Below, piece after piece: positions 638 to 63,214 of a stretch of 64,000 nt of DNA. Position 1 is the stretch's first letter; each line of letters opens with the position of its first letter. Origin of the DNA: Rufibacter glacialis (GTDB lineage: Bacteria; Bacteroidota; Bacteroidia; Cytophagales; Hymenobacteraceae); assembly GCF_008271745.1 (NCBI RefSeq), contig NZ_VKKZ01000021.1:186001-250000 (forward strand), read 5' to 3'. A program made the position numbers and the translations under genes. The notes beneath the pieces are model-generated. The model was not told the DNA's origin. It did no database searches and worked only from the letters and a program-made list of their open reading frames with translations.

Positions 638-809
638 GGCAGGTAATTCTTCTGGAGGGGTAGGCGTAAAAAAATCACGAAACCTTATTACATACGGGAA
701 ACCTGCGCTTTTTCCTGCTATATTTTATAAAAAAAGGTCAAAATCACCCATAAATTTCTGTTCCATCTTTTTCTCCCTTTCTGACCTCTCCTCCCAAGCC
801 TATAAAATG

Positions 810-864
810 AAAAAGACCGTTTGGTGGCTGTTTTGTAGAAAACGGCCACCAAACGGTCTTTTTT
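810..864. terminator. bidirectional hairpin terminator
   Basis: A near-perfect inverted repeat of about 24 bp (left arm AAAAGACCGTTTGGTGGC, loop GTAG) is flanked by an A-run on the left and a T-run on the right, so it could terminate in both directions. It lies just past the kynU stop. The inner part (GGCTGTTTT/GAAAACGGCC) resembles the interspersed REP-like family of this window. Confidence 0.85.
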
Positions 865-918: not shown

Positions 919-2190
919 CTAGCTTCTGAAATGCTGCGCCAGGAACTGGCCAAACCGGTATACGTCTTCAAAGGTATTGTACATGGGCGTGGGGGCTACC
1001 CTGATCACGTTGGGCTCGCGCCAGTCCAGGATGAAGCCGTTGGCCATGAGCGTGTCAAACAGTTGGCGGCCGTTCTGGTGCACCAGCAGGGACAACTGGC
1101 AGCCTCTGGCCGAAGGTTCTTCTGGGGTGATTACCTCCAGGGCTGTTTTGGGTTGCTGCAATTCTTTGATCAGGAACTCCAGGTAGCCGGTGAGTTTTTC
1201 GCTTTTAGCCCGAAGATTGTCCATGCCAGCCTGGTCAAAGAGTTCCAAAGAGGCTTTGTGCACCGCCATGGGCAGCACCTGGCTGTTGGAAAGCTGCCAG
1301 CCATCGGCTCCGGCCATGGGAATAAAGCCTTTCTTCATCTGGAACCGCTGGCCCTGGTCATGGCCCCACCATCCCGCAAACCGGGGCAGGTCTGGGTTCT
1401 GCGCGTGCCGTTCATGCACAAACACCCCAGAGGTTCCCCCCGGGCCTGAGTTCAGGTATTTATAGGTACACCACACGGCAAAGTCCACGTTCCAGTCATG
1501 CAGGCGCAGGGTGACGTTGCCGGCAGCATGGGCCAGGTCAAACCCGCACATTGCTCCCACGGCATGGGCTTCCTGGGTAATGGCCGCCATGTCAAACACC
1601 TGCCCGGTGTAATAGTTCACACCGCCCATCATCACCAGCGCCAGTTCGCTTTCGTTTTCCCGGATGGTGGCCAGAATGTCTTCGGTGCGGAGGATGTGCT
1701 CGCCCGGCCGGGGGGCTACCTCCAGAATGGCTTCGTCTGGATTGAACCCGTGGAATTTCACCTGGCTTTCCAGGGCGTACTGATCAGAGGGGAAGGCGCC
1801 GGCCTCCGTGAGGATTTTGAACCGTTTGCCCTGCGGCCGATAGAAGGAAACCAACATAAGGTGCAGGTTCACGGTAAGTTGATTCATGACCACTACCTCT
1901 TCGGGCCTGGCACCCACTACCCGGGCGGTAGGCGCTGCCAGCAGGGTGTGGTACGTGAACCAGGGAGAGTCGCCGGTAAAATGGCCTTCCACGCCTAGTT
2001 CTGCCCATTTGGTCATTTCCTGCTCCAGGGCGGCACGGGCGGCTTTCGGCTGAAGGCCGAGGGAGTTGCCGCACAGGTACACCGTGTCGGTGCCGTTTTG
2101 CTGTGGAATAAAGTAGTGGTCTCTAAAGGAACGAAGGGAATCTGCCTGGTCCTGTGATTGGGCGTAGGCAAGCGTATTTTGGTAAGACAT
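919..2190 (-). CDS. kynU: kynureninase
   Basis: A 423-residue PLP enzyme hydrolysing L-kynurenine or 3-hydroxykynurenine to anthranilate or 3-hydroxyanthranilate plus alanine. The visible family signature runs YLCGNSLGL (38-46), FPSDQYA (133-139), FDLAHAAGN (217-225) and the PLP lysine K244 in CTYKYLNSGPGG. Length is normal for the family. It starts with ATG and is followed by a terminator hairpin. ACMSD lies 196 bp upstream in the same orientation, and the later steps of the same pathway (RidA-type deaminase, HAAO, ALDH) are within 9 kb. With HAAO nearby, 3-hydroxykynurenine is the likely substrate. Confidence 0.95.
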   Translation of the reverse strand: MSYQNTLAYAQSQDQADSLRSFRDHYFIPQQNGTDTVYLCGNSLGLQPKAARAALEQEMTKWAELGVEGHFTGDSPWFTYHTLLAAPTARVVGARPEEVVVMNQLTVNLHLMLVSFYRPQGKRFKILTEAGAFPSDQYALESQVKFHGFNPDEAILEVAPRPGEHILRTEDILATIRENESELALVMMGGVNYYTGQVFDMAAITQEAHAVGAMCGFDLAHAAGNVTLRLHDWNVDFAVWCTYKYLNSGPGGTSGVFVHERHAQNPDLPRFAGWWGHDQGQRFQMKKGFIPMAGADGWQLSNSQVLPMAVHKASLELFDQAGMDNLRAKSEKLTGYLEFLIKELQQPKTALEVITPEEPSARGCQLSLLVHQNGRQLFDTLMANGFILDWREPNVIRVAPTPMYNTFEDVYRFGQFLAQHFRS

Positions 2191-2290
2191 GAAGTTCTTT
2201 AACTAGCTGGGTGGAACGGTTGGCTAAATTACCTAACAGGCGTTAGACTACCATATACTTTTGAGGAAACTCTACGGCCGCGTTTACCAG

Positions 2291-2329
2291 CCGTTTTGGT
2301 CCTGTTTTAGAAGAACAAGCCCTAACCCC
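2291..2329. repeat. REP-like interspersed palindrome
   Basis: An imperfect copy in the kynU-ACMSD gap (CCGTTTTGGTCCTGTTTTAG followed by an AAGCCCTAACCCC arm). The arms are degenerate compared with the best copy at 48550-48603. Confidence 0.45.
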
Positions 2330-2386
2330 ACCTTTTTGTTTTAGCCGGGGAACCTAACCTATTTTAAGCCCGGCTTCCCCCAGAGG

Positions 2387-3439
2387 TCACCCTTGCCTGG
2401 CCTGCGTCCGGACCTGCCCCATAAACCGCTCTTTCTCCAGCCCCAGCCACTGCAGAGCTGAGCCGCTCAAGAGCATTTCCTTCACCTCCTGGGTATAGGG
2501 CATGGATTCAATCAACTTGCCGGGTTCCAGTTCACCCAGCGGGAAAGGGTAATCTGAGCCCAAGGCTACTTTGTCGGCCCCGAACTGCTTTACCACGAAG
2601 TCAAGGGTAGTAGGGCAGTGCACCAGGGAGTCTATCCAGAACTTGCCCACGTAGTTCTCGGGGGCTACGGGGTTGTCTACGGCGCAAAGGTCGGGGCGCA
2701 CGTCAAAACCGTGCTGGATACGCCCCAGCGTGAACGGGAACGAACCGCCGCCGTGCGCAAAAGCCAGCCGGAGTTTAGGCAACCGTTCCAGCACCCCCCC
2801 GAAGATAAGGGAGCAGATGGCGCGGGAAGTCTCGGCGGGCATGCTCACGAGCCAGGGCAGCCAGTACTTGCGCATCTTCTTTTCACCCATCATGTCCCAG
2901 GGGTGCACAAAGACGGCGGCTCCCAGATCAGCGGCCGCCTCAAAGATGGGGAACAGCGCGGCATCATCCAGGTTGATATCGTTTATGTTGGAACCGATCT
3001 GCACGCCCGCCAGCCCCAGTTCCTTCACGCAGCGCTCCAGTTCCTTGATGGCCAGCCCCGCGTCTTGCATGGGCAGGGTGCCCAGGCCCACAAACCGCGT
3101 GGGGTAGCGGGCCACCACACCGGCGATATGGTCGTTGAGAATCTTGGAGAGGTCCCAGGTGTGCTCGGGCTTGGCCCAGTAGTTGAACATGACCGGCACC
3201 GTGCTCAGCACCTGCACCTGCACCCCGTGCTGGTCGCACTCCCGCATGCGGGCGGCGGGGTCCCAGCTGTTTTCCTGGATTTCCCTGAAGAACCGGTCAT
3301 CCAGCATCATGCGGGCGCAGCAGGGCTTGTGGTGCTCCAGCCGCACGAAGCCGCCATACCCGTACCGCTCCCGCAGGTCGGGCCATTTCTCCGGCAGGAT
3401 GTGCGTATGGATGTCTATTTTAAGCGGTTGATGCGACAT
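2387..3439 (-). CDS. 2-amino-3-carboxymuconate-6-semialdehyde decarboxylase (ACMSD-type amidohydrolase)
   Basis: A 350-residue TIM-barrel amidohydrolase. In the ACMSD family it decarboxylates the HAAO product to 2-aminomuconate semialdehyde, diverting flux away from quinolinate and NAD. Visible metal-site residues are H11xH13 (DIHTHILPE), H179 (VHPWDMMG), H229 (AHGGG) and D296 ([10 protein letters not shown]). The ATG at 3439 is preferred over longer in-frame options because residues before MSHQP are unlike the family, which begins just before the metal-binding HxH. It is divergent from the RidA-type gene. Other amidohydrolase-2 decarboxylases are possible on sequence alone, but the kynurenine neighbours make ACMSD the best call. 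Confidence 0.9.
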
Positions 3440-3654
3440 GGAAAACAAGACAAACAAGTAAGAACGGTTGCTCAACTTACGAAAACTCTGGCACATAGTC
3501 TTGCCAGCACGACGACACGGCTCTTTTTCGGCTTTCTTTTGGCAAAACAGGCCCAAAACTTCCGACTTGCCTCCTTCTGTCACCCGAGTTTTTGGTATAT
3601 GTGCATCAGGTTAGATAAACTTACGGCATCATTCACCTTATACCTTATTACACC

Positions 3655-4038: not shown

Positions 4039-4247
4039 CTCACTTTATAGGCCGTTTTTCAAAAGCAACCTAGAAATCCAGCATGCTCGGTTTAGTCTCT
4101 TTATCAACAGATTAAGTTTTATCCAAAATAAACGAGCCTAACTTGCAATCCTATGCGTTTTACACCTGTTTATTTGAGAATACCGCAAAAAGTAAGTAGG
4201 TTGGAGAAAAGTAGGAAACTGATTCCCCCCTCTTTTCCCTCCTGCCT

Positions 4248-5910: not shown

Positions 5911-5949
5911 GTTTGGAGCTTGTTTTGTAAAGAATGGCTCTGAAACGGC
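5911..5949. repeat. REP-like interspersed palindrome
   Basis: The copy has arms CGTTTGGAGCTTGTTTT and GGCTCTGAAACGGC, directly after the yebC stop and before its terminator. Confidence 0.45.
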
Positions 5950-7897: not shown

Positions 7898-8155
7898 GGC
7901 AGTAGCGTTTGAGTAGAAAGTGCGTCTTTGGTTCAGGCCAGAGACTGCCCCAAGGTACGAAACCTCCTGCATAAAAGATAGACACCGCTTTTGGTCTCTT
8001 TTTTAGTAAACAGCTTGAAAACTACTGCTCCTCTTTTTCGACCTCATTACTTATTGCCTTGGTTTGTATACCTGACTGATGGAGGACGGCCCATCCCCAC
8101 TTCCATCTTTCTGCCCACCCCTTTTGTCTTTCTTTGGCGGCCGCACTTCTTTTTT

Positions 8156-8244
8156 GTTTTCCTGAAAAGAACTTCGTGGGCGAACCAGAAAAGCATTAAT
8201 AGAAGCGCCAGTACAGCTTGTCCGCAAGATCTTTCCAAGAGGAT
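8156..8244. repeat. degenerate full copy of the 87-bp GTCATCCTGA repeat
   Basis: The left side TTTTCCTGAAAAGAACTTCG with GTGGGCGAACCAG and the right side CAGCTTGTCCGCAAGATC with CTTTCCAAGAGGAT align end to end with the copy at 13641-13727. It is the only recognisable content of the 430-bp gap between HAAO and the SDR gene, apart from the GACTCAGAACTC repeat next to the SDR start. Confidence 0.6.
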
Positions 8245-8293
8245 AAGGGCGAGAAGAGGTACTTCACGGCTTTATTTCCTAATTTGACTACTT

Positions 8294-9191: not shown

Positions 9192-9412
9192 GCGTTTTGG
9201 GCTTGTTTTCCGGAACACAGGCTCAAAACGGAAAACAGCAGAATCCCCCTCTCCCTGGAGGGAGAGGGCTAGGGTGAGGGGGCAGCGGCGGTTTCAAGAC
9301 TAAAGCTTCTCCGGTTTGTTACAGTTTTTTTTAAGGATTGTTGTTTCATGGGGAAGACTTTCCTGTTTGGAAGCTAACTCCCCCCTCATCCTACCCTTCT
9401 CCCTCAGGGAGA
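9192..9412. repeat. repeat-rich gap: REP-like copy plus inverted CCCTCTCCC elements
   Basis: The 386-bp gap between the SDR and aldehyde dehydrogenase genes holds no gene. It contains a REP-like copy (9192-9231, arms GCGTTTTGGGCTTGTTTTCC and CAGGCTCAAAACGG). It also has two oppositely oriented copies of a GAGGGAGAGGG / CCCTTCTCCCTC element (about 9243-9282 and 9379-9412) of a kind common between genes in many bacteria. Confidence 0.6.
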
Positions 9413-9502
9413 AGGAACGCCGCCTTTACTTCTTGAAGCTGATGGTTGTAAAGGGAAGTAGTTTCGTCCAGCGTTTTATGTCTAACCTCTAGCGCCTTTT
9501 CT

Positions 9503-13337: not shown

Positions 13338-13407
13338 TGTTTTGATATTATTGGTGATGGGCTTGTTTTACGGAAGCAGGCTAAAAGCGGAATTTTTATC
13401 TTCTGCC

Positions 13408-13539
13408 GTAGAGACTAGGCACTGCCTTGTCTCCTGCGCATTGCTTTCGATTTGTTTTCACGCATTTCCTAGCCTGGTGCTAACTGGTGCTAAAAAGGTT
13501 CCGGAATGCGTAAGAGACAAGGCAGTGCCTGGTCTCTAC
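13408..13539. repeat. GTAGAGAC-bounded interspersed element (132 bp)
   Basis: The left end GTAGAGACTAGGCACTGCC with TTGTCTC and the right end GAGACAAGGCAGTGCCTGG with TCTCTAC are inverted repeats, each itself nearly palindromic around GGCACTGCC. A second element with the same ends lies at 56199-56322. Confidence 0.8.
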
Positions 13540-13605: not shown

Positions 13606-13640
13606 TGCACGCCTGGCAGCCAAATAGCTTCCCCTCTTTT

Positions 13641-13727
13641 GTCATCCTGAAAGGATCTTGTGGGAGAACTAGAACAGCTTGTAGCTAACGCCTTTGCAGT
13701 TCACCTACAAGATCTTTCCAAGATGAC
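13641..13727. repeat. 87-bp GTCATCCTGA element, full copy
   Basis: It begins GTCATCCTGAAAGGATCTTG and ends CAAGATCTTTCCAAGATGAC, imperfect inverted ends of about 30 bp around a less conserved centre. It has the same length as the copy at 41071-41157. Confidence 0.85.
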
Positions 13728-13824
13728 AGAAAAAAGGAAGAAAGGCCTTAAGGGGTGAAAGGCATTATCAGTCCAGATACCTGAATCTGGGTACAGTGAG
13801 AAAAATCTTCTGGAATGCGCCCTG

Positions 13825-13848: not shown

Positions 13849-13986
13849 CGGGTGCTGCGGCAAGAACTCCCGACCAGTTTAGAGGCTGTTTTCTAAGAAT
13901 GCCACTTAAACGCACCTCAAAGCCCTAACCACACCTCCTCTATTTAGAAGCTTATTTCAGAAAAATAACCGCTAAAAGCATTGGCC

Positions 13987-14975: not shown

Positions 14976-15127
14976 CTACGTTACCTGCTCATTTTCAGCT
15001 AGCCTCAGGTTAAGTTTCTGTTTAGTGGCCGTTTCCCAAAAATGAGTCGCAAACAAAAAGGATAACGCAGGGGCGTAGGCTACAGCCGCAGACAGCTGTA
15101 GGTCCCCCGGATGCTCCGAAGTCTTAT

Positions 15128-15193
15128 TGGCCGCTTTACCCAAAACAGCCCCTAAACAGAAAGCCCCGCGTGGTAGGCGGGGCTTTCTGTTTA
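15128..15193 (-). terminator. hairpin terminator downstream of cysteine desulfurase
   Basis: A perfect 17-bp stem at 15153-15193 (TAAACAGAAAGCCCCGC, loop GTGGTAG) lies 24 bp past the desulfurase stop. Directly beside it at 15128-15157 is a REP-like half (CGCTTTACCCAAAACAGCCC), and the outer stem arm merges with it. Confidence 0.75.
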
Positions 15194-17856: not shown

Positions 17857-18708
17857 AGATTCCTTTTTTTGAACACACAAAAGTAGTGAAATAGAAATGA
17901 ATCAACACAATGAAGAAGACAAACGTGCCGCCTGCCACGGTTATTAAAACAATATTATTTTCATCTTCTATCCTCTGTTCAGCACCCTGGAAGGCATGGT
18001 CTTAACTCCCAATCAGCCATTGCTTTCTGCGCAAGGCCAAAAGGATTTCCTGTTCAGAAAAGAGCCAGGCAGAGACGGAGGGCATTTCTTTCAGGTCCCC
18101 TTTTCATAAAATAGGCTAAAAACAGGGCGCCCCAAGAGAATAGCAACCGTTCTACCAAACCACCCAGAAAAGTTTAGCCGTGCGCCTGTTTCTTGGTCAG
18201 GAACCGGTTACGAGTAAGTACCTGAGAAACGGGGAAAGACGGTGGGCTGCTCTGCCTAGGCTGCATGAATGGGGCCTTGTAAGGTTCTTGCCAAAGGCCC
18301 CACCCGCTGTTCCTTTTTCTGGTGCCTTTTCTATTTAGTCACAGCTACCACTGACAACCTTTTACCCCATTCCTGCGTTGTGGCGGTACTTCCAACCGAT
18401 CTTCCCCTTTGCCTGATGAGCTTTTCACCGGCCATTTGATAAGGGGTAAAAGAAAAATATTTTTTTTCTTCCTGGGTTTATGGAATCCGCATACCACATG
18501 CATCTAAGTAGAAAATAAATCGTTCTGCGCTTTGACCAGGTCCAGGCAAGAACGTAACCTGTTCCTCGCCTCTTTTTCCTAAAACGGGCTGAAAACAGGT
18601 TGGCACAAACTACCTGACCGGTAAAAATTTACGGTTTATTGTGTTACTAAAAGATCAAGAAAGTATGCGTAGCTGCTAAATTCCTAACATTACGTTTATC
18701 TTTGCTAA
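17857..18708. other. 850-bp gene-free gap with hairpins; possible structured RNA
   Basis: No gene is supported between the divergent glmM and mazG. Two degenerate REP-like copies occur (about 18095-18128 and 18567-18602). Other structure includes a hairpin GGGGCCTT/AAGGCCCC at 18271-18301. There is also a 10-bp inverted pair CTTTTACCCC (about 18359) / GGGGTAAAAG (about 18443) closed by an A/T-rich run ending in eight T. No match to the core motifs of tmRNA, RNase P RNA or SRP RNA was seen. Confidence 0.5.
18697..18704 (+). promoter_or_regulatory. -7 box TATCTTTG of mazG
   Basis: A perfect TAnnTTTG ends only 4 bp before the mazG ATG. If used, transcription would start at or within a few bases of the start codon, giving a leaderless or nearly leaderless mRNA. 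No good -33 TTTG is seen. Confidence 0.45.
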
Positions 18709-25529: not shown

Positions 25530-25574
25530 AGGCATAAAAAAAGCCCCCAATCTCTGGGGGCTTTTTTTATGCCT
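25530..25574 (+). terminator. hairpin terminator after the TPR gene
   Basis: AGGCATAAAAAAAGCCCCC / GGGGGCTTTTTTTATGCCT, a near-perfect stem with A and T runs, so it may act in both directions. Confidence 0.9.
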
Positions 25575-25682
25575 TATTTTCTACAAATTAACCGTAAAAC
25601 GACTGGGGAAAGAAAGCAAACTATCTGGACTTTATTGCCACCAGATGATTGGAACACAGAAAAGGAGCTGCAATAAGTAGGT

Positions 25683-25727
25683 GCTGTTTTACCCGTACAT
25701 TTCATAAAACAGCCTTGAAACCTACCC
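25683..25727. repeat. REP-like interspersed palindrome
   Basis: GCTGTTTTACCCGTACATTT with CATAAAACAGCC; the arms GGTGCTGTTTTA and TAAAACAGCC are inverted. It lies between the TPR terminator and the RluD-type gene stop. Confidence 0.5.
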
Positions 25728-26879: not shown

Positions 26880-26917
26880 GTGTTTCCTTGGTGTTTTCTG
26901 TAATATGGCACAAAAAT

Positions 26918-26952
26918 AAAGAGCCGGTGACGAAATACGTCACCGGCTCTTT
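26918..26952 (-). terminator. hairpin terminator after the bamA-ompH block
   Basis: A perfect 15-bp stem AAAGAGCCGGTGACG / CGTCACCGGCTCTTT, followed on the minus strand by ATTTTT. Confidence 0.88.
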
Positions 26953-36629: not shown

Positions 36630-36743
36630 CCTGTTTCAGGCCCGCTTTTTAACATACAGGCCCAAAACAGGAAATAAAATCAAGTAACTAACCAGCGGAG
36701 CCGCCGTTTTAGGGCTGGTTTACAGAAAACAAGGCCTAAACCC
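36630..36743. repeat. two REP-like palindromes in tandem
   Basis: Copy A 36630-36671 (CCTGTTTCAGGCCCGCTTTT ... CAGGCCCAAAACAGG). Copy B 36704-36743 (CCGTTTTAGGGCTGGTTTAC ... AAACAAGGCCTAAACCC). They lie between the amidotransferase start and the cvpA stop. Confidence 0.6.
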
Positions 36744-38586: not shown

Positions 38587-38657
38587 ATGACAGGCTTCTC
38601 TTTTTCCTTCTGTTTTCAGAAAAGCAGCAGCAGAACGCGACGTAACTGGGTTGGCTT

Positions 38658-39236
38658 ATGCTAGGCGTGCTGTTTAAGATAGCGGCCTTTGTGGTGGCGG
38701 CGCACTACGCCGTGCGGTTCTTCGACTGGCTTTTCAAGAAACAGCAGCGGGTGTATTTCCTCTCGCCCATGCGCCAATTCAAGATGGTGTTCTGGTCTTT
38801 GCTGAGCTTCTGGCTGGGCGGCTCCATGCTGGGCCTGCTGCTGCGGGACCAGACAGACACGCCCCTGGAACAAGGCATTGCCCTGGGTTTAGGAGTAGTG
38901 CTGTTCCTCTTCGCGCTGCCCACCTTGCTGGTGCACGTGCAGTACTGGCGCCATGAGCGGGAAAACGCCCTGGAATTGGAAAAAGAAACCCAAAGCGCGC
39001 TGCTGCTGCAACCCAGCGGCAAGTACCTGCTCACCCCGCAGCAGGTCAGGCAGATCACCCATACGAAAAGTTCGTCCCAGCGCTTTTTCTGGAGCTCGTA
39101 CCACTACCTCACGCTTTCCCTGGCAGACGGCCGGCAAGTGAAAATCACCTCGTTGTTACTGGATGTAGAGCAACTGAAGGCGCTCTGGCCCCGCGTACCC
39201 TGCCAGACCAGAACGAAATGGATCTGTTTTCTGTAA
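38658..39236 (+). CDS. membrane-anchored hypothetical protein
   Basis: 192 residues, family unrecognised. Three hydrophobic segments lie in the first half (about 4-22, 44-61 and 74-96), then a soluble C-terminal region from about 105. It sits between pdxJ and the YbfF-like hydrolase with gaps of 71 and 38 bp, so co-transcription is plausible. REP-like sequence lies just before it and just after it. Confidence 0.7.
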   Translation: MLGVLFKIAAFVVAAHYAVRFFDWLFKKQQRVYFLSPMRQFKMVFWSLLSFWLGGSMLGLLLRDQTDTPLEQGIALGLGVVLFLFALPTLLVHVQYWRHERENALELEKETQSALLLQPSGKYLLTPQQVRQITHTKSSSQRFFWSSYHYLTLSLADGRQVKITSLLLDVEQLKALWPRVPCQTRTKWICFL

Positions 39237-39250
39237 AACAGACCTAAAAC
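39223..39250. repeat. REP-like palindrome overlapping a gene end
   Basis: ATCTGTTTTCTGTAAAACAG with ACCTAAAAC. The copy overlaps the last codons of the membrane protein (C-terminal ICFL), so part of this protein's tail is encoded by the repeat. Confidence 0.55.
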
Positions 39251-40042: not shown

Positions 40043-40243
40043 AACCTGCTTTTCAGAACCTGGCGTAGGTGCACCTCTGGCAATTCAAGTTGAAGGCTAA
40101 TTTTTCTGTTGAATCCCGACCGTAAACGAGGAAAGCGCCTGAACCAGGATCTGGTGGGCGAACAGGCAATAATCTAGATGATAAAAGTGGACTCAGCTGC
40201 TTCCCCTGTTTTAAGCCGCTTTTAGATAAAATACCTAATAAAC

Positions 40244-40963: not shown

Positions 40964-41070
40964 TCCTACCCCGTCGTTTTAGAGCTATTTTCAGAAAACA
41001 GGTCCAAAAGAAGCAGCCAAGAACCTGAATTAAAAACAAGGTCAGGAACAAGCATACCTACTTTCTCTCT

Positions 41071-41157
41071 GTCATCCTGAAAGGATCTTGGTGGCGAACG
41101 GCAAATGCATTCCATAAGTGCCTTTCTAGTTCGCCCACAAGATCCTTCCAGGATGAC
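41071..41157. repeat. 87-bp GTCATCCTGA element, full copy
   Basis: The left end is GTCATCCTGAAAGGATCTTG and the right end CAAGATCCTTCCAGGATGAC, with an inner GGCGAAC / GTTCGCC pair. It is the best-preserved copy. Confidence 0.88.
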
Positions 41158-41306
41158 AATATGTTTTATTTGTCCTCTTACCTACAAACGTTGATTTCTC
41201 TCCTCGTTTAAGAGCTATTTTTAGAATATAGACCAGAAAAGGAATAGCGACAAATTGTGTTTACAAAGTAGACGCAACAATTATTAGCTTGCCGGTTATT
41301 AGTTTG

Positions 41307-41401: not shown

Positions 41402-41445
41402 AAATAGAAAGGGTAGAGAACCGCAGTTCTCTACCCTTTCTATTT
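41402..41445. terminator. bidirectional hairpin terminator
   Basis: A perfect 20-bp stem AAATAGAAAGGGTAGAGAAC with loop CGCA lies between convergent genes (RsmI-like and the EnvC-like operon). It is A-rich on one side and T-rich on the other. Confidence 0.85.
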
Positions 41446-41485
41446 CTATCCCGTTTTTGTCAAAAAGGCCGCTAAATAGGAATGC

Positions 41486-46393: not shown

Positions 46394-46516
46394 AGTGTCT
46401 CTTAAATAGGTTGCTTAAGTATGGCCTACCTACGGGTTTTTCCAGATTTAGATATGCTAATCTCCCGTTTGCAGGCTATTTCCTCGAAAATATAGTAAAA
46501 ACCGAAGATAGCCAAT

Positions 46517-48549: not shown

Positions 48550-48603
48550 CCTACTCCCGATTTTAGCCGCTTTTCTGAAAAACAGGCTAAAATCGGGAGT
48601 AGG
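48550..48603. repeat. best REP-like palindrome (19-bp perfect arms)
   Basis: CCTACTCCCGATTTTAGCC and its exact reverse complement flank GCTTTTCTGAAAAACA. It is the best-preserved copy of the REP-like family. It lies between crotonase and flippase genes and could also act as a terminator. Confidence 0.8.
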
Positions 48604-50107: not shown

Positions 50108-50161
50108 GCTATAAACAGGAAAGCCTCTTCTACCCGTAGAAGGGGCTTTCCTGTTTATAGC
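50108..50161 (+). terminator. hairpin terminator after the small secreted protein
   Basis: A perfect 18-bp stem GCTATAAACAGGAAAGCC / GGCTTTCCTGTTTATAGC, with an inner TTCT/AGAA pair. Confidence 0.85.
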
Positions 50162-50226
50162 CCTTTTTCCAGAAACCTGGCCTAAAACAAAACCTGTGAA
50201 AGGTGCGTGCTGAGCCGCCCTTGGCA

Positions 50227-50427
50227 GAGACACTCGTAGGACCTGCGGACACTACGAGGTCTTTCTGAGAAACGGGATAGCGGCGGAAAAGAACTTCCCT
50301 TGGTTAAAAATGCACCAGTTGTTTTACGGCTCTTTTATTCTAAATGAGGCAGAAAAGGACCAGCACCTGAACCAAATAGCTCTAACTCAAAAGACCTCGT
50401 AGTGTCCGCAGGTCCTACGAGTGTCTC
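50227..50427. repeat. 38-bp perfect inverted repeat pair
   Basis: Copy 1 is 50227-50264 (starting GAGACACTCGTAGGACCTGC) and copy 2 is 50390-50427 (starting AAAGACCTCGTAGTGTCCGC). They are exact reverse complements of each other over 38 bp with 125 bp between. Each copy also has CTCGTAG/CTACGAG ends that can form a small hairpin. Confidence 0.92.
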
Positions 50428-50429
50428 CG

Positions 50430-50656
50430 CCCATAGCCTTGCCTGTACAACTCTCTCTCCTGGCCATTCCCAAGAATCCATAGTCTCTTACGTGCCATTG
50501 TTGGTGGTATCACCAACAATCCTTTATCAGGCACTTTTATCAGGCACTTTCCAAAAACCACCATCAGACTGAAATGGATAGGAGTTGGTGGTGAGAACAC
50601 CAACAACGGCACCCCTTTCCCGACTTTATTCTGAAAAACGAGCCTAAAGCCCCCAA
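50430..50656. other. remaining repeat-rich gap: GTTGGTG hairpins, tandem 13-mer, REP-like copy
   Basis: ATTGTTGGTG...CACCAACAAT (about 50497-50520) and GTTGGTGGTGAGAACACCAAC (about 50586-50608) are palindromic elements. TTTATCAGGCACT is present twice in tandem (about 50523-50548). REP-like copies are at about 50320-50359 and 50622-50653. No gene is supported in the 50162-50656 interval. Confidence 0.65.
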
Positions 50657-53987: not shown

Positions 53988-54077
53988 GTTCAAATATGCT
54001 GTTATAATTTACTTTTAGTAGTTACTTGTTTCTTACTCATTAAAAAGGATGGGTGGCCTTGACGACTTCGCGTTTTT

Positions 54078-54112
54078 GTCCTCTTCCCCGGAAAATAGGC
54101 CAAAAATGGCAC
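54078..54112. repeat. REP-like palindrome between nusA and infB
   Basis: CCTCTTCCCCGGAAAATAGG with CCAAAAATGGC. It is a weak, degenerate copy of the family, inside the operon between nusA and infB. Confidence 0.4.
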
Positions 54113-55992: not shown

Positions 55993-56365
55993 AGCGCATT
56001 ATGTACGCGTTAAGATATTATCTGGTGAGAACTGAGAGAAGAAAATACCCAAAACCCATAGCCATAGAACCCAAGGACGCAGGGCTTTCTATATAGGAAT
56101 TAACCTATTGGCTGGGTGAATAGTTCAACGGGCTTATGCTAGATTGAGCCTCTTTTTTAGGAAAAAAGGCAAAAAGCAGCTTCTGAATAGTGAACCCCGT
56201 AGAGACCAGGCACAGTTTTACTCCACGAACTACAGTTTTCAGCAACGGTTGCTTTTGCTTCACGAAATGCAATGACCGAGACCGAAGGCTAACGCTGAGA
56301 CAAGGCAGTGCCTTGTCTCTACCATTTTTGAACCTATTTCCCCAAAATTTGGCTAAAAACGCTTT
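55993..56365. other. repeat-rich gap upstream of rimP
   Basis: There is no gene. REP-like copies lie at about 56148-56178 and 56330-56360, and a GTAGAGAC-bounded element at 56199-56322. Confidence 0.75.
56199..56322. repeat. GTAGAGAC-bounded interspersed element (124 bp)
   Basis: The left end GTAGAGACCAGGCACAG and right end GAGACAAGGCAGTGCCTTG with TCTCTAC are the same inverted ends as the element at 13408-13539. The inner sequence has diverged. Confidence 0.78.
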
Positions 56366-62931: not shown

Positions 62932-62970
62932 GCCACTGAAAACGGGCTCTTTTTTAAAAAGCCTTCTATA

Positions 62971-63013
62971 AACAGAACAGCCACTGGACGACCTCCGGTG
63001 GCTGTTCTGTTTT
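62971..63013. terminator. hairpin terminator after the BI-1/YccA gene
   Basis: Stem AACAGAACAGCCAC / GTGGCTGTTCTGTT with a TTT tail. It lies between the BI-1 gene and the repeat-rich gap before alanine racemase, and may serve both. Confidence 0.75.
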
Positions 63014-63214
63014 ATACCTGATAGAATGTCATCTTGCTTGTGGCTCCCGGCGAGTCCGGAGACTCGCTTCATCCCTGGGCACGAGTTATAAACTCGCGCC
63101 AGTAGAGCCCGAGACAATAGTATCGCGCCAGTAGATTCTTCATCTGTGAGGTCTCCAAGACCTCACAGATTTCTGCGTTTCTCACCTGTTTCCGCAAAAA
63201 AACCGCTGAAACGG
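63014..63214. repeat. cluster of short palindromes before the alanine racemase end
   Basis: GCGAGTCCGGAGACTCGC (63050-63067), a reverse CTGGCGC element (63078-63102), ATCTGTGAGGTCTCCAAG with its inverted arm (63142-63170) and a REP-like copy (about 63184-63215) next to the alr stop codon. No gene. Confidence 0.7.

Follow-up and report, generated by a model that had tools for sequence, protein, structure and literature searches.

REP and BIME elements are small, interspersed, extragenic palindromes that stand behind genes in up to thousands of copies per genome. The REP/RAYT definition given in PMC3733652 includes a GTAG or CGTC tag, with the association to RAYT described there for the GTAG class only, and stem-loops are described in PMC1590033 as clustering at 3' ends. 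HIP1 of the cyanobacteria is a genome-wide iterated palindrome of one lineage, of debated role; it is an 8-bp word (GCGATCGC), which PMC4390886 links to methyltransferases. The phased A-tract signals of the nucleoid place A-tracts at the helical period and have been described as a periodicity of whole genomes. Neisseria uptake sequences are single-orientation words that are present in coding DNA too. They reach thousands of copies, a minority of them in terminator-like hairpins, and uptake sequences with species dialects are described for the Neisseriaceae in PMC3630211.

A repeat of Rufibacter glacialis and other Rufibacter species, here called the dyad, shares traits with each of these systems. 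It resembles REP and BIME elements in size, copy number, palindromic form, and place behind genes, but it has no GTAG/CGTC tag, no obligatory RAYT, and nearly fixed positions, and most dyads show no overall pairing constraint. As with the Neisseria uptake sequences, there are thousands of copies, species dialects, and a hairpin-forming, terminator-like minority, whereas the unit is a whole 40-bp dyad, and the sites of at least 15 bits in genomes G014 and G007 are almost all extragenic. The iteration throughout the genomes of one lineage recalls HIP1, although the Rufibacter dyad is a 40-bp boundary site. Its A-tracts also recur at the helical period, but as part of a defined, high-information site at fixed gene junctions.

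The window, the whole 64-kb stretch of R. glacialis DNA that was analysed, had been reported in a first-pass annotation to contain over 20 copies of one imperfect palindrome. All 23 listed places overlap sites of a position-weight model at 13.5 bits or more. This recovery is partly circular because the model was seeded from those 23 copies before iterative training on 864 kb of R. glacialis (the window and two 400-kb stretches), and independent support for the family is provided by other genomes. The family proved larger than claimed: the model places 46 sites in the window, 38 of them intergenic, and the latter include 22 of the 23 listed copies and 16 that had not been listed, some of them weak. 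The annotation had put all but one copy outside genes, and the copy at 39215-39250 indeed straddles the end of the gene at 38658-39236. The excess over shuffled DNA that it had proposed as a test is clear: the window has 48 seed-arm matches, and five shuffles have 5-9. In the 864 kb of R. glacialis there are 592 sites, compared with 27 per 800 kb of dinucleotide-shuffled DNA at the same threshold, and 438 of the 592 lie outside predicted genes, as expected for the abundant, interspersed, extragenic family that had been described, although the non-genic share of the sequence is only 22-26%. At these looser thresholds, 154 of the 592 sites, and 29 of 167 in G007:1-400 kb, fall inside genes as predicted by a simple codon-bias script. 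Scaling 592 sites per 864 kb to 5.32 Mb and subtracting 5% for chance gives approximately 3,500 sites in the R. glacialis genome. No Rfam RNA family matched the 64-kb window above its gathering score.

The copies vary in quality, as had been noted. The copy at 48550 has the 19-bp perfect arms ascribed to it (19 perfect outer pairs counted), and nine folded copies comprise three strong hairpins (811, 36630, and 48550; z -4.95 to -11.0), three moderate ones (z -1.9 to -2.6), and three that are not hairpins (z -0.9 to +1.7). The sites of the window are listed below as 36 of the 38 intergenic sites (the weak sites 22999 and 62145 are omitted) and the site at 39215; gap occupancy refers to the orthologous gaps of genomes G005, G010, G011, and G015.

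709-744, plus strand: weak dyad site, 25.2 bits.
819-854, minus strand: dyad with extended perfect hairpin and A-/T-tracts, terminator-like, 34.9 bits; fold z -11; orthologous gap occupied in 4/4 relatives.
2293-2327, plus strand: dyad site, 30.2 bits; gap occupied in 2/4 relatives.
3524-3559, plus strand: dyad site, 32.6 bits; gap occupied in 2/2 relatives having it.
4043-4077, plus strand: weak dyad site, 25.7 bits.
4157-4192, plus strand: weak dyad site, 24.1 bits.
5911-5946, minus strand: dyad site directly behind a gene end, 34.4 bits.
7987-8022, minus strand: dyad site in a divergent gap, 31.3 bits; gap occupied in 4/4 relatives.
9194-9229, minus strand: dyad site, among the two strongest in the window, 40.5 bits.
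13353-13388, plus strand: dyad site, 25.2 bits; gap occupied in 4/4 relatives.
13877-13911, minus strand: dyad site, 27.3 bits.
13942-13977, plus strand: dyad site, 29.6 bits.
15020-15054, plus strand: dyad site, 28.9 bits; gap occupied in 3/3 relatives having it.
15122-15157, plus strand: dyad site adjoining a separate terminator hairpin (read from the sequence), 30.0 bits.
18088-18123, plus strand: dyad site, 33.0 bits; gap occupied in 4/4 relatives.
18561-18596, minus strand: dyad site, 37.6 bits; shares its gap with 18088-18123.
25565-25600, minus strand: dyad site in a convergent gap, 32.1 bits; gap occupied in 3/3 relatives having it.
25686-25721, plus strand: dyad site in a convergent gap, 30.8 bits.
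26882-26917, minus strand: dyad site beside a conserved separate terminator (4-species alignment), 27.1 bits; gap occupied in 3/3 relatives having it.
36633-36668, minus strand: dyad site with extended stem (5-species alignment), 34.1 bits; fold z -4.95.
36706-36741, plus strand: the strongest dyad site of the window, 41.4 bits; gap with 2-3 sites in all 5 species.
38601-38636, minus strand: dyad site in a 71-bp tandem gap, 24.7 bits; gap occupied in 4/4 relatives.
39215-39250, plus strand: dyad site straddling a gene end, 28.8 bits.
40208-40243, minus strand: dyad site, 34.7 bits; gap occupied in 3/4 relatives.
40976-41010, plus strand: dyad site in a convergent gap, 3-nt centre, 35.9 bits; gap occupied in 4/4 relatives.
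41206-41240, plus strand: dyad site in a convergent gap, 3-nt centre, 29.3 bits.
41442-41477, minus strand: dyad site in a convergent gap, 33.2 bits.
46467-46502, plus strand: dyad site directly behind a gene end (5-species alignment), 31.8 bits; gap occupied in 4/4 relatives.
48559-48594, minus strand: dyad with extended outer stem (the copy first described at 48550-48603), 37.0 bits; fold z -8.3.
50153-50188, plus strand: dyad site in a convergent gap, 36.9 bits; gap occupied in 4/4 relatives.
50321-50357, plus strand: dyad site in a convergent gap, 5-nt centre, 28.6 bits.
50615-50650, plus strand: dyad site adjoining a terminator (seen in the sequence), 24.8 bits.
54072-54107, minus strand: dyad site, 34.0 bits; gap occupied in 3/3 relatives having it.
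56141-56176, plus strand: dyad site, 26.1 bits; gap occupied in 4/4 relatives.
56325-56360, minus strand: dyad site, 27.2 bits; shares its gap with 56141-56176.
62938-62973, plus strand: weak dyad site, 21.5 bits.
63177-63212, minus strand: dyad site in a convergent gap, 34.2 bits; gap occupied in 3/4 relatives.

At 48559-48594, the outer ACTCCCG/CGGGAGT is kept in five species and the inner pairs are largely compensated. The gap of the strong site at 9194-9229 is without a site in two of the three relatives having it and holds a 13-bit match only in the third; this site is possibly young, or lost in the relatives. An intrinsic terminator (AGAGCCGGTGACG..CGTCACCGGCTCTTT) at about 26920-26952 is kept in four species, and the dyad adjoining it is more variable. 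The window also holds other repeats. An imperfect palindrome of about 100-110 bp (8139-8258, 13632-13728, and 41060-41159) is scattered in Rufibacter, with 34 nhmmer matches in the sampled DNA, several places being matched on both strands. An inverted repeat of about 200 bp (CCCCCTCTCCC...TCCCTCAGGGAGAAGG) at 9240-9445 has 20 nhmmer matches, both strands counted, 19 of them in R. glacialis, which is over-represented in the sampled DNA; pieces of it match other Rufibacter genomes too. A palindromic repeat (GTAGAGAC..AGGCACTGCCTTGTCTC) adjoins dyad sites at about 13400-13440, 56195-56215, and 56300-56325.

The dyad is a unit of approximately 40 bp, the halves of which face each other over a centre of usually 4 bp. 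The R. glacialis consensus is loose, approximately [CT]GTTTTnnGGCTGTTTT-NNNN-AAAACAGGCCnAAAC, and its arms do not form one perfect palindrome. The consensus of G014 and G007 is sharp (YCGTTTTTGGSCTRTTTT-CYRG-AAAAYAGSCCAAAAACGR), and its C-YR-G centre is a symmetric 4 bp. Within 400 kb of G014, counts of GTTTT..AAAAC are 22 for a gap of 4, 117 for a gap of 15, and 137 for a gap of 26, compared with 0-6 for each of the remaining 31 gap lengths from 0 to 33, and GTTTT..GTTTT peaks at 11 bp (58 vs 0-6). These peaks indicate that each half consists of two GTTTT words in direct repeat, spaced by one helical turn (11 bp), and that the halves are inverted, giving four words per site, two forward and two inverted, in an 11-bp register. 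The AA/TT steps are phased best at a period of 9.5-10, with a resultant of 7.73 against 3.61 for the same sites shuffled in G014 and 6.05 against 3.16 in R. glacialis. The A-tracts are thus phased as in curved DNA, and the phasing suggests that the dyad is curved. Lone half-sites outside dyads are near the shuffled level with 2 mismatches (114 vs 101-123); with 1 mismatch there are 13 against 4-6, and with none, 1 against 0.

When up to 150 candidates were scored per genome at E up to 1e-6, a sequence-only model derived from the window copies matched all 15 other Rufibacter genomes sampled, and it had no match in 13 genomes from other genera. The sharper model of G014 and G007 was run with stricter filters, scoring 41 candidates per genome at E up to 1e-5. 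It matched every one of the 16 Rufibacter genomes and, outside the genus, 8 of the family's 134 other genomes, with 1-5 matches in each of these 8. A near-perfect consensus pattern, searched in 84,980 species represented by one genome each, returned 24 stretches, every one from Rufibacter. The G014 and G007 genomes contain 168 and 167 sites per 400 kb (2 and 16 per 800 kb in shuffles), of which 161 and 138 are intergenic, and a second 400 kb of G007 contains 151. Scaled from the 400-kb stretches, the genome totals are approximately 1,830 sites in G014 and 1,650 in G007, so that copies per Rufibacter genome are estimated at 1,600 to 3,500. A 36-base pattern allowing up to 2 mismatches has 455 matches in the whole of G014 and none for its reversed control. 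For comparison with another genus, 100 kb of G016, a small sample, was searched de novo and yielded no analogous dyad, and two Rufibacter models gave 17 and 0 matches there against 14.5 and 1.25 in shuffled DNA. One 54-bp stretch with a G014 copy had no match in plasmid and phage collections, and the open-licence PMC literature on Rufibacter contained no account of such repeats among the matches listed.

The dyad occurs in species dialects, in which the middle of the arm varies by species and the GTTT words are constant. Models built on 80-120 kb samples with 43-85 sites each gave 23.5 bits and 72 sites per 100 kb for R. glacialis and 25-29 bits and 71-84 sites per 100 kb for G015, G011, and G010, and for G005, G014, and G007 they gave 36.4, 38.2, and 35.5 bits with 58, 45, and 43 sites per 100 kb. 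The arm of G005 is a distinct dialect, approximately CGTTTAGGGGCTGTTTT in the model of its 58 sites.

The location of the dyads relative to genes was examined with the G014 and G007 sites of at least 15 bits, only 10 of 316 of which are held by predicted genes. Dyads occupy 56 of 66 convergent gaps of at least 80 bp and 151 of 224 tandem gaps of at least 120 bp; none of the 101 tandem gaps under 40 bp, which have no room for a site, is occupied. A divergent gap holds a site in 40 of 69 cases when it measures at least 200 bp and in 0 of 25 when it is shorter. When only gaps of like length (80-120 bp) are compared, 17 of 18 convergent, 10 of 44 tandem, and 0 of 8 divergent ones contain a dyad. 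Many copies had been placed at gene ends, and the distribution of centres does have its peak shortly after stop codons, with 36 of the 73 centres in convergent gaps at a distance of 20-35 bp from the closer of the two stops. Dyads are infrequent in the stretch directly upstream of start codons: among the tandem-gap sites 31 of 188, and among the divergent-gap sites 6 of 45, have their centre within the last 80 bp ahead of one. Dyad sites therefore mark the boundaries of transcription units. Counts bearing on whether dyads take the place of intrinsic terminators point both ways: compared with gene ends without a dyad, separate terminators are rarer at those with a near dyad in tandem gaps (14/117 vs 23/89) and commoner in convergent gaps (22/49 vs 9/35). 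The corresponding counts in G016, 5 of 10 convergent and 8 of 23 tandem ends, are few and not clearly different from Rufibacter.

These positions are old and conserved between species. Between G014:1-400 kb and G007:2.89-3.29 Mb, 246 proteins are reciprocal best matches, with a median identity of 90.8%, and 200 neighbour pairs are conserved; 52 of these pairs were dropped because the gap was below 60 bp in both. The remaining 148 orthologous gaps have a site in both species in 81 cases, in neither in 65, and in one only in 2, so that 81 of 83 occupied gaps share a site; 9 of the 81 differ in site number. The most constrained arm columns are 93.1% identical in 67 single-site ortholog pairs, compared with 57.4% identity at 4-fold synonymous sites (32,787 sites). 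Random non-orthologous copies are 91.7% identical in these columns, which are thus at the motif's own limit. Orthologous copies are more similar than random pairs in the variable columns (67.3% vs 55.4%) and in the flanks at 30-45 bp (44.2% vs 25.6%), indicating true orthologs instead of re-insertions. Wide divergence of the flanks and of synonymous positions has left the dyad sequence in place at corresponding gene junctions. Between the window and G005, G010, G011, and G015, at a threshold of 12 bits at which chance matches number 3-13 per shuffled region, 130 gap comparisons gave 71 with a site in both, 42 in neither, 10 in the window only, and 7 in the relative only.

Selection on a hairpin should leave covariation between the arms, the second test that the first-pass annotation had proposed. 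Among 468 sites with a 4-nt centre in G014 and G007, nearly all core column pairs are without a pairing excess over column composition, and pairs 10 and 13 have a small one (z 2.5 and 3.6). An extended class with an outer stem of at least 4 bp comprises 65 sites (14%); these pair better in the core than the other 403 (15.4 vs 12.9 of 17) and more often have a T-run, defined as at least 5 T of 8 on either side (49% vs 13%). Pairing is 92.8% against 87.9% shuffled in the extended class (0 of 200 shuffles), 80.0% against 79.9% in the 403 others (54 of 200), and 79.1% against 79.2% in the 343 sites with an outer stem below 2 bp. Within the 403, pair 13 is above expectation (88% vs 82%, z 2.9) and pair 7 below (z -3.0). 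R. glacialis has a 1-point excess in 417 sites with fewer than 2 outer pairs (60.4% vs 59.4%; 0 of 200 shuffles). Double changes in 76 G014/G007 ortholog pairs follow the same division: 19 against 10.6 expected, 12 of them Watson-Crick to Watson-Crick, in 14 pairs with an extended member, and 37 against 36.3, 7 of them Watson-Crick, in the 62 without. A 57-row alignment, which contains extended copies, shows 81.3% pairing against 79.7% and 47 double changes against 32.0 (2 and 9 of 500 shuffles). A further alignment, chosen by eye and with one or more extended copies among its rows, entered none of the counts. Covariation is thus present in the extended minority and as the residual of about one point in R. 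glacialis, and is absent overall in the other 86% of the G014 and G007 sites. An RNA hairpin should moreover favour G.U over A.C mismatches in the transcription sense, but among non-extended tandem-gap sites read in that sense, the 158 of G014 and G007 have 165 G.U and 166 A.C and the 207 of R. glacialis have 306 and 291, which leaves no RNA-strand signature. The lack of overall covariation in the arms (403 of 468 sites) together with G.U not exceeding A.C indicates that the double-stranded sequence is selected; in most copies the constraint is on the sequence of both strands and not on base pairing. An RNA hairpin was rejected on these grounds as the general explanation for most copies, and the hairpin with T-run that characterises intrinsic terminators is not a feature of the family as a whole.

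The absence of a RAYT-type transposase from the window, which had been reported, was borne out, as no Y1/RAYT match lies within it. The search elsewhere that had been suggested found four PF01797 matches in R. glacialis, all outside the window. PF01797 Y1 matches, most of them weak, occur in 15 of 16 Rufibacter genomes; G007 has none at E up to 0.001, though approximately 1,650 sites are estimated for it. Genomes G017 and G018 have Y1 matches and no site by the window model or the G014 and G007 model at the thresholds used. Mobilisation by RAYT is not supported, and its maintaining the sites is unlikely, given the sites without a detected Y1 match in G007 and the Y1 matches without detected sites in G017 and G018. 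The REP tag, GTAG or CGTC at one end, is absent; the consensus ends in YCGTTTT..AAAACGR, and columns outside it are near background. Presence differs in only 2 of 148 gaps, and in 17 of 130 in the window set, which is unlike a mobile REP, and conserved stem-loop pairing is lacking in 403 of 468 sites and found in the extended 65. High copy number, extragenic and near gene ends, is the REP feature that the dyads do have. With four of the tested REP features failing and one present, the family is not filed as REP. The earlier description as REP-like accordingly stands for an abundant, extragenic palindrome in the form of a dyad and for the most part falls for a mobile hairpin, for RAYT, and for a structured RNA.

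The reading that we lean towards, with a little more confidence than doubt, is that the dyad acts in cis as double-stranded DNA and is fixed in Rufibacter at the boundaries of transcription units, thousands of them, where it is read by a protein and separates the units. The dyad is probably the docking site of a putative chromosome protein. Judging from anatomy and position, an abundant Rufibacter-specific dimer or tetramer may bind each dyad and bend it, and the bound dyad would separate neighbouring units as a roadblock or supercoil barrier, as its position suggests. The species dialects may reflect changes in the putative binding protein. In approximately 14% of dyads, the flanks pair as well, which makes them true hairpins; a T-run accompanies about half of these extended copies, which are probably also intrinsic terminators. 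A more specific version, a genus-specific insulator in which one architectural protein sits on 1,600-3,500 curved dyads in any unit orientation and co-evolves with their dialects, is proposed tentatively. Several observations count against the boundary-site reading: the residual pairing in R. glacialis, in pair 13 of the non-extended class, and in the 57-row alignment; the dyads of the long divergent gaps; those inside predicted genes at the looser thresholds; and the unequal site numbers in 9 of the 81 shared gaps. No binding protein emerged either: when 1,490 predicted proteins from the stretches sampled, a minor part of each genome, were filtered by charge and length, no candidate was convincing. 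HU-HIG proteins occur in 9 of 9 genomes tested from six genera and are therefore not distinctive.

An RNA-level function, in which a REP-like dyad is transcribed at mRNA 3' ends and its hairpin acts as a terminator or exonuclease shield, is unlikely. It would account for the peak of centres 20-35 bp behind stop codons, the 65 of 468 sites with an outer stem of at least 4 bp (49% with a T-run), the compensatory changes in the 48550 copy over five species, the pairing of the extended class above shuffles (92.8% vs 87.9%), and the small residual in R. glacialis. The remaining 86% of G014 and G007 sites, however, lack overall covariation, G.U is not favoured over A.C on the sense strand, separate terminators stand on either side of dyads, and the sites in 40 of 69 long divergent gaps would not be predicted by an element of 3' ends only. 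Slightly less likely still is an old mobile repeat (REP/MITE) that spread in the Rufibacter ancestor and was later partly domesticated. Similar interspersed palindromes nearly restricted to one genus, the mostly weak Y1 matches in 15 of 16 genomes, and the variation in site number in 9 of 81 shared gaps are consistent with such a history, yet G007 maintains its sites without a PF01797 match, G017 and G018 have Y1 matches and no site by either model at the thresholds used, and presence differs in only 2 of 148 gaps. Neutral leftovers, moreover, could not keep 93% arm identity at the divergence of G014 and G007. The family may have originated by spread and been captured for a function afterwards.

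Two functions at the DNA level that involve neither boundary separation nor RNA were also weighed. E. coli BIMEs bind gyrase, and a BIME-like loading site for topoisomerase or gyrase, wrapped or bent behind genes and absorbing positive supercoils, would agree with the symmetric 4-bp centre, the phased A-tracts, and the enrichment in convergent gaps. Gyrase is generally regarded as universal, whereas the dyad is nearly confined to one genus, and its information content of 23-38 bits appears high for a topoisomerase site; we regard this function as improbable. A DNA uptake signal spread by biased transformation is the least probable of the explanations considered, and highly so. Thousands of copies, helically phased T-tracts, and species dialects like those that PMC3630211 describes for the uptake sequences of Neisseriaceae speak for it, but half-sites outside dyads are near the shuffled level, predicted genes contain 10 of the 316 sites that reach 15 bits, and convergent gaps are strongly preferred over tandem and divergent gaps of equal length.

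Extragenic palindromes are usually taken for selfish hairpins or RNA elements. For the Rufibacter dyad, three tests that can be made without experiments, namely orthology of position despite high synonymous divergence, no overall covariation, and equal G.U and A.C counts, indicate that most copies are selected as double-stranded DNA. If one protein reads the dyads, Rufibacter would offer a tractable bacterial chromosome that is divided at most unit ends by one type of site, as well as a case in which the specificity of a protein has shifted over thousands of sites between species.
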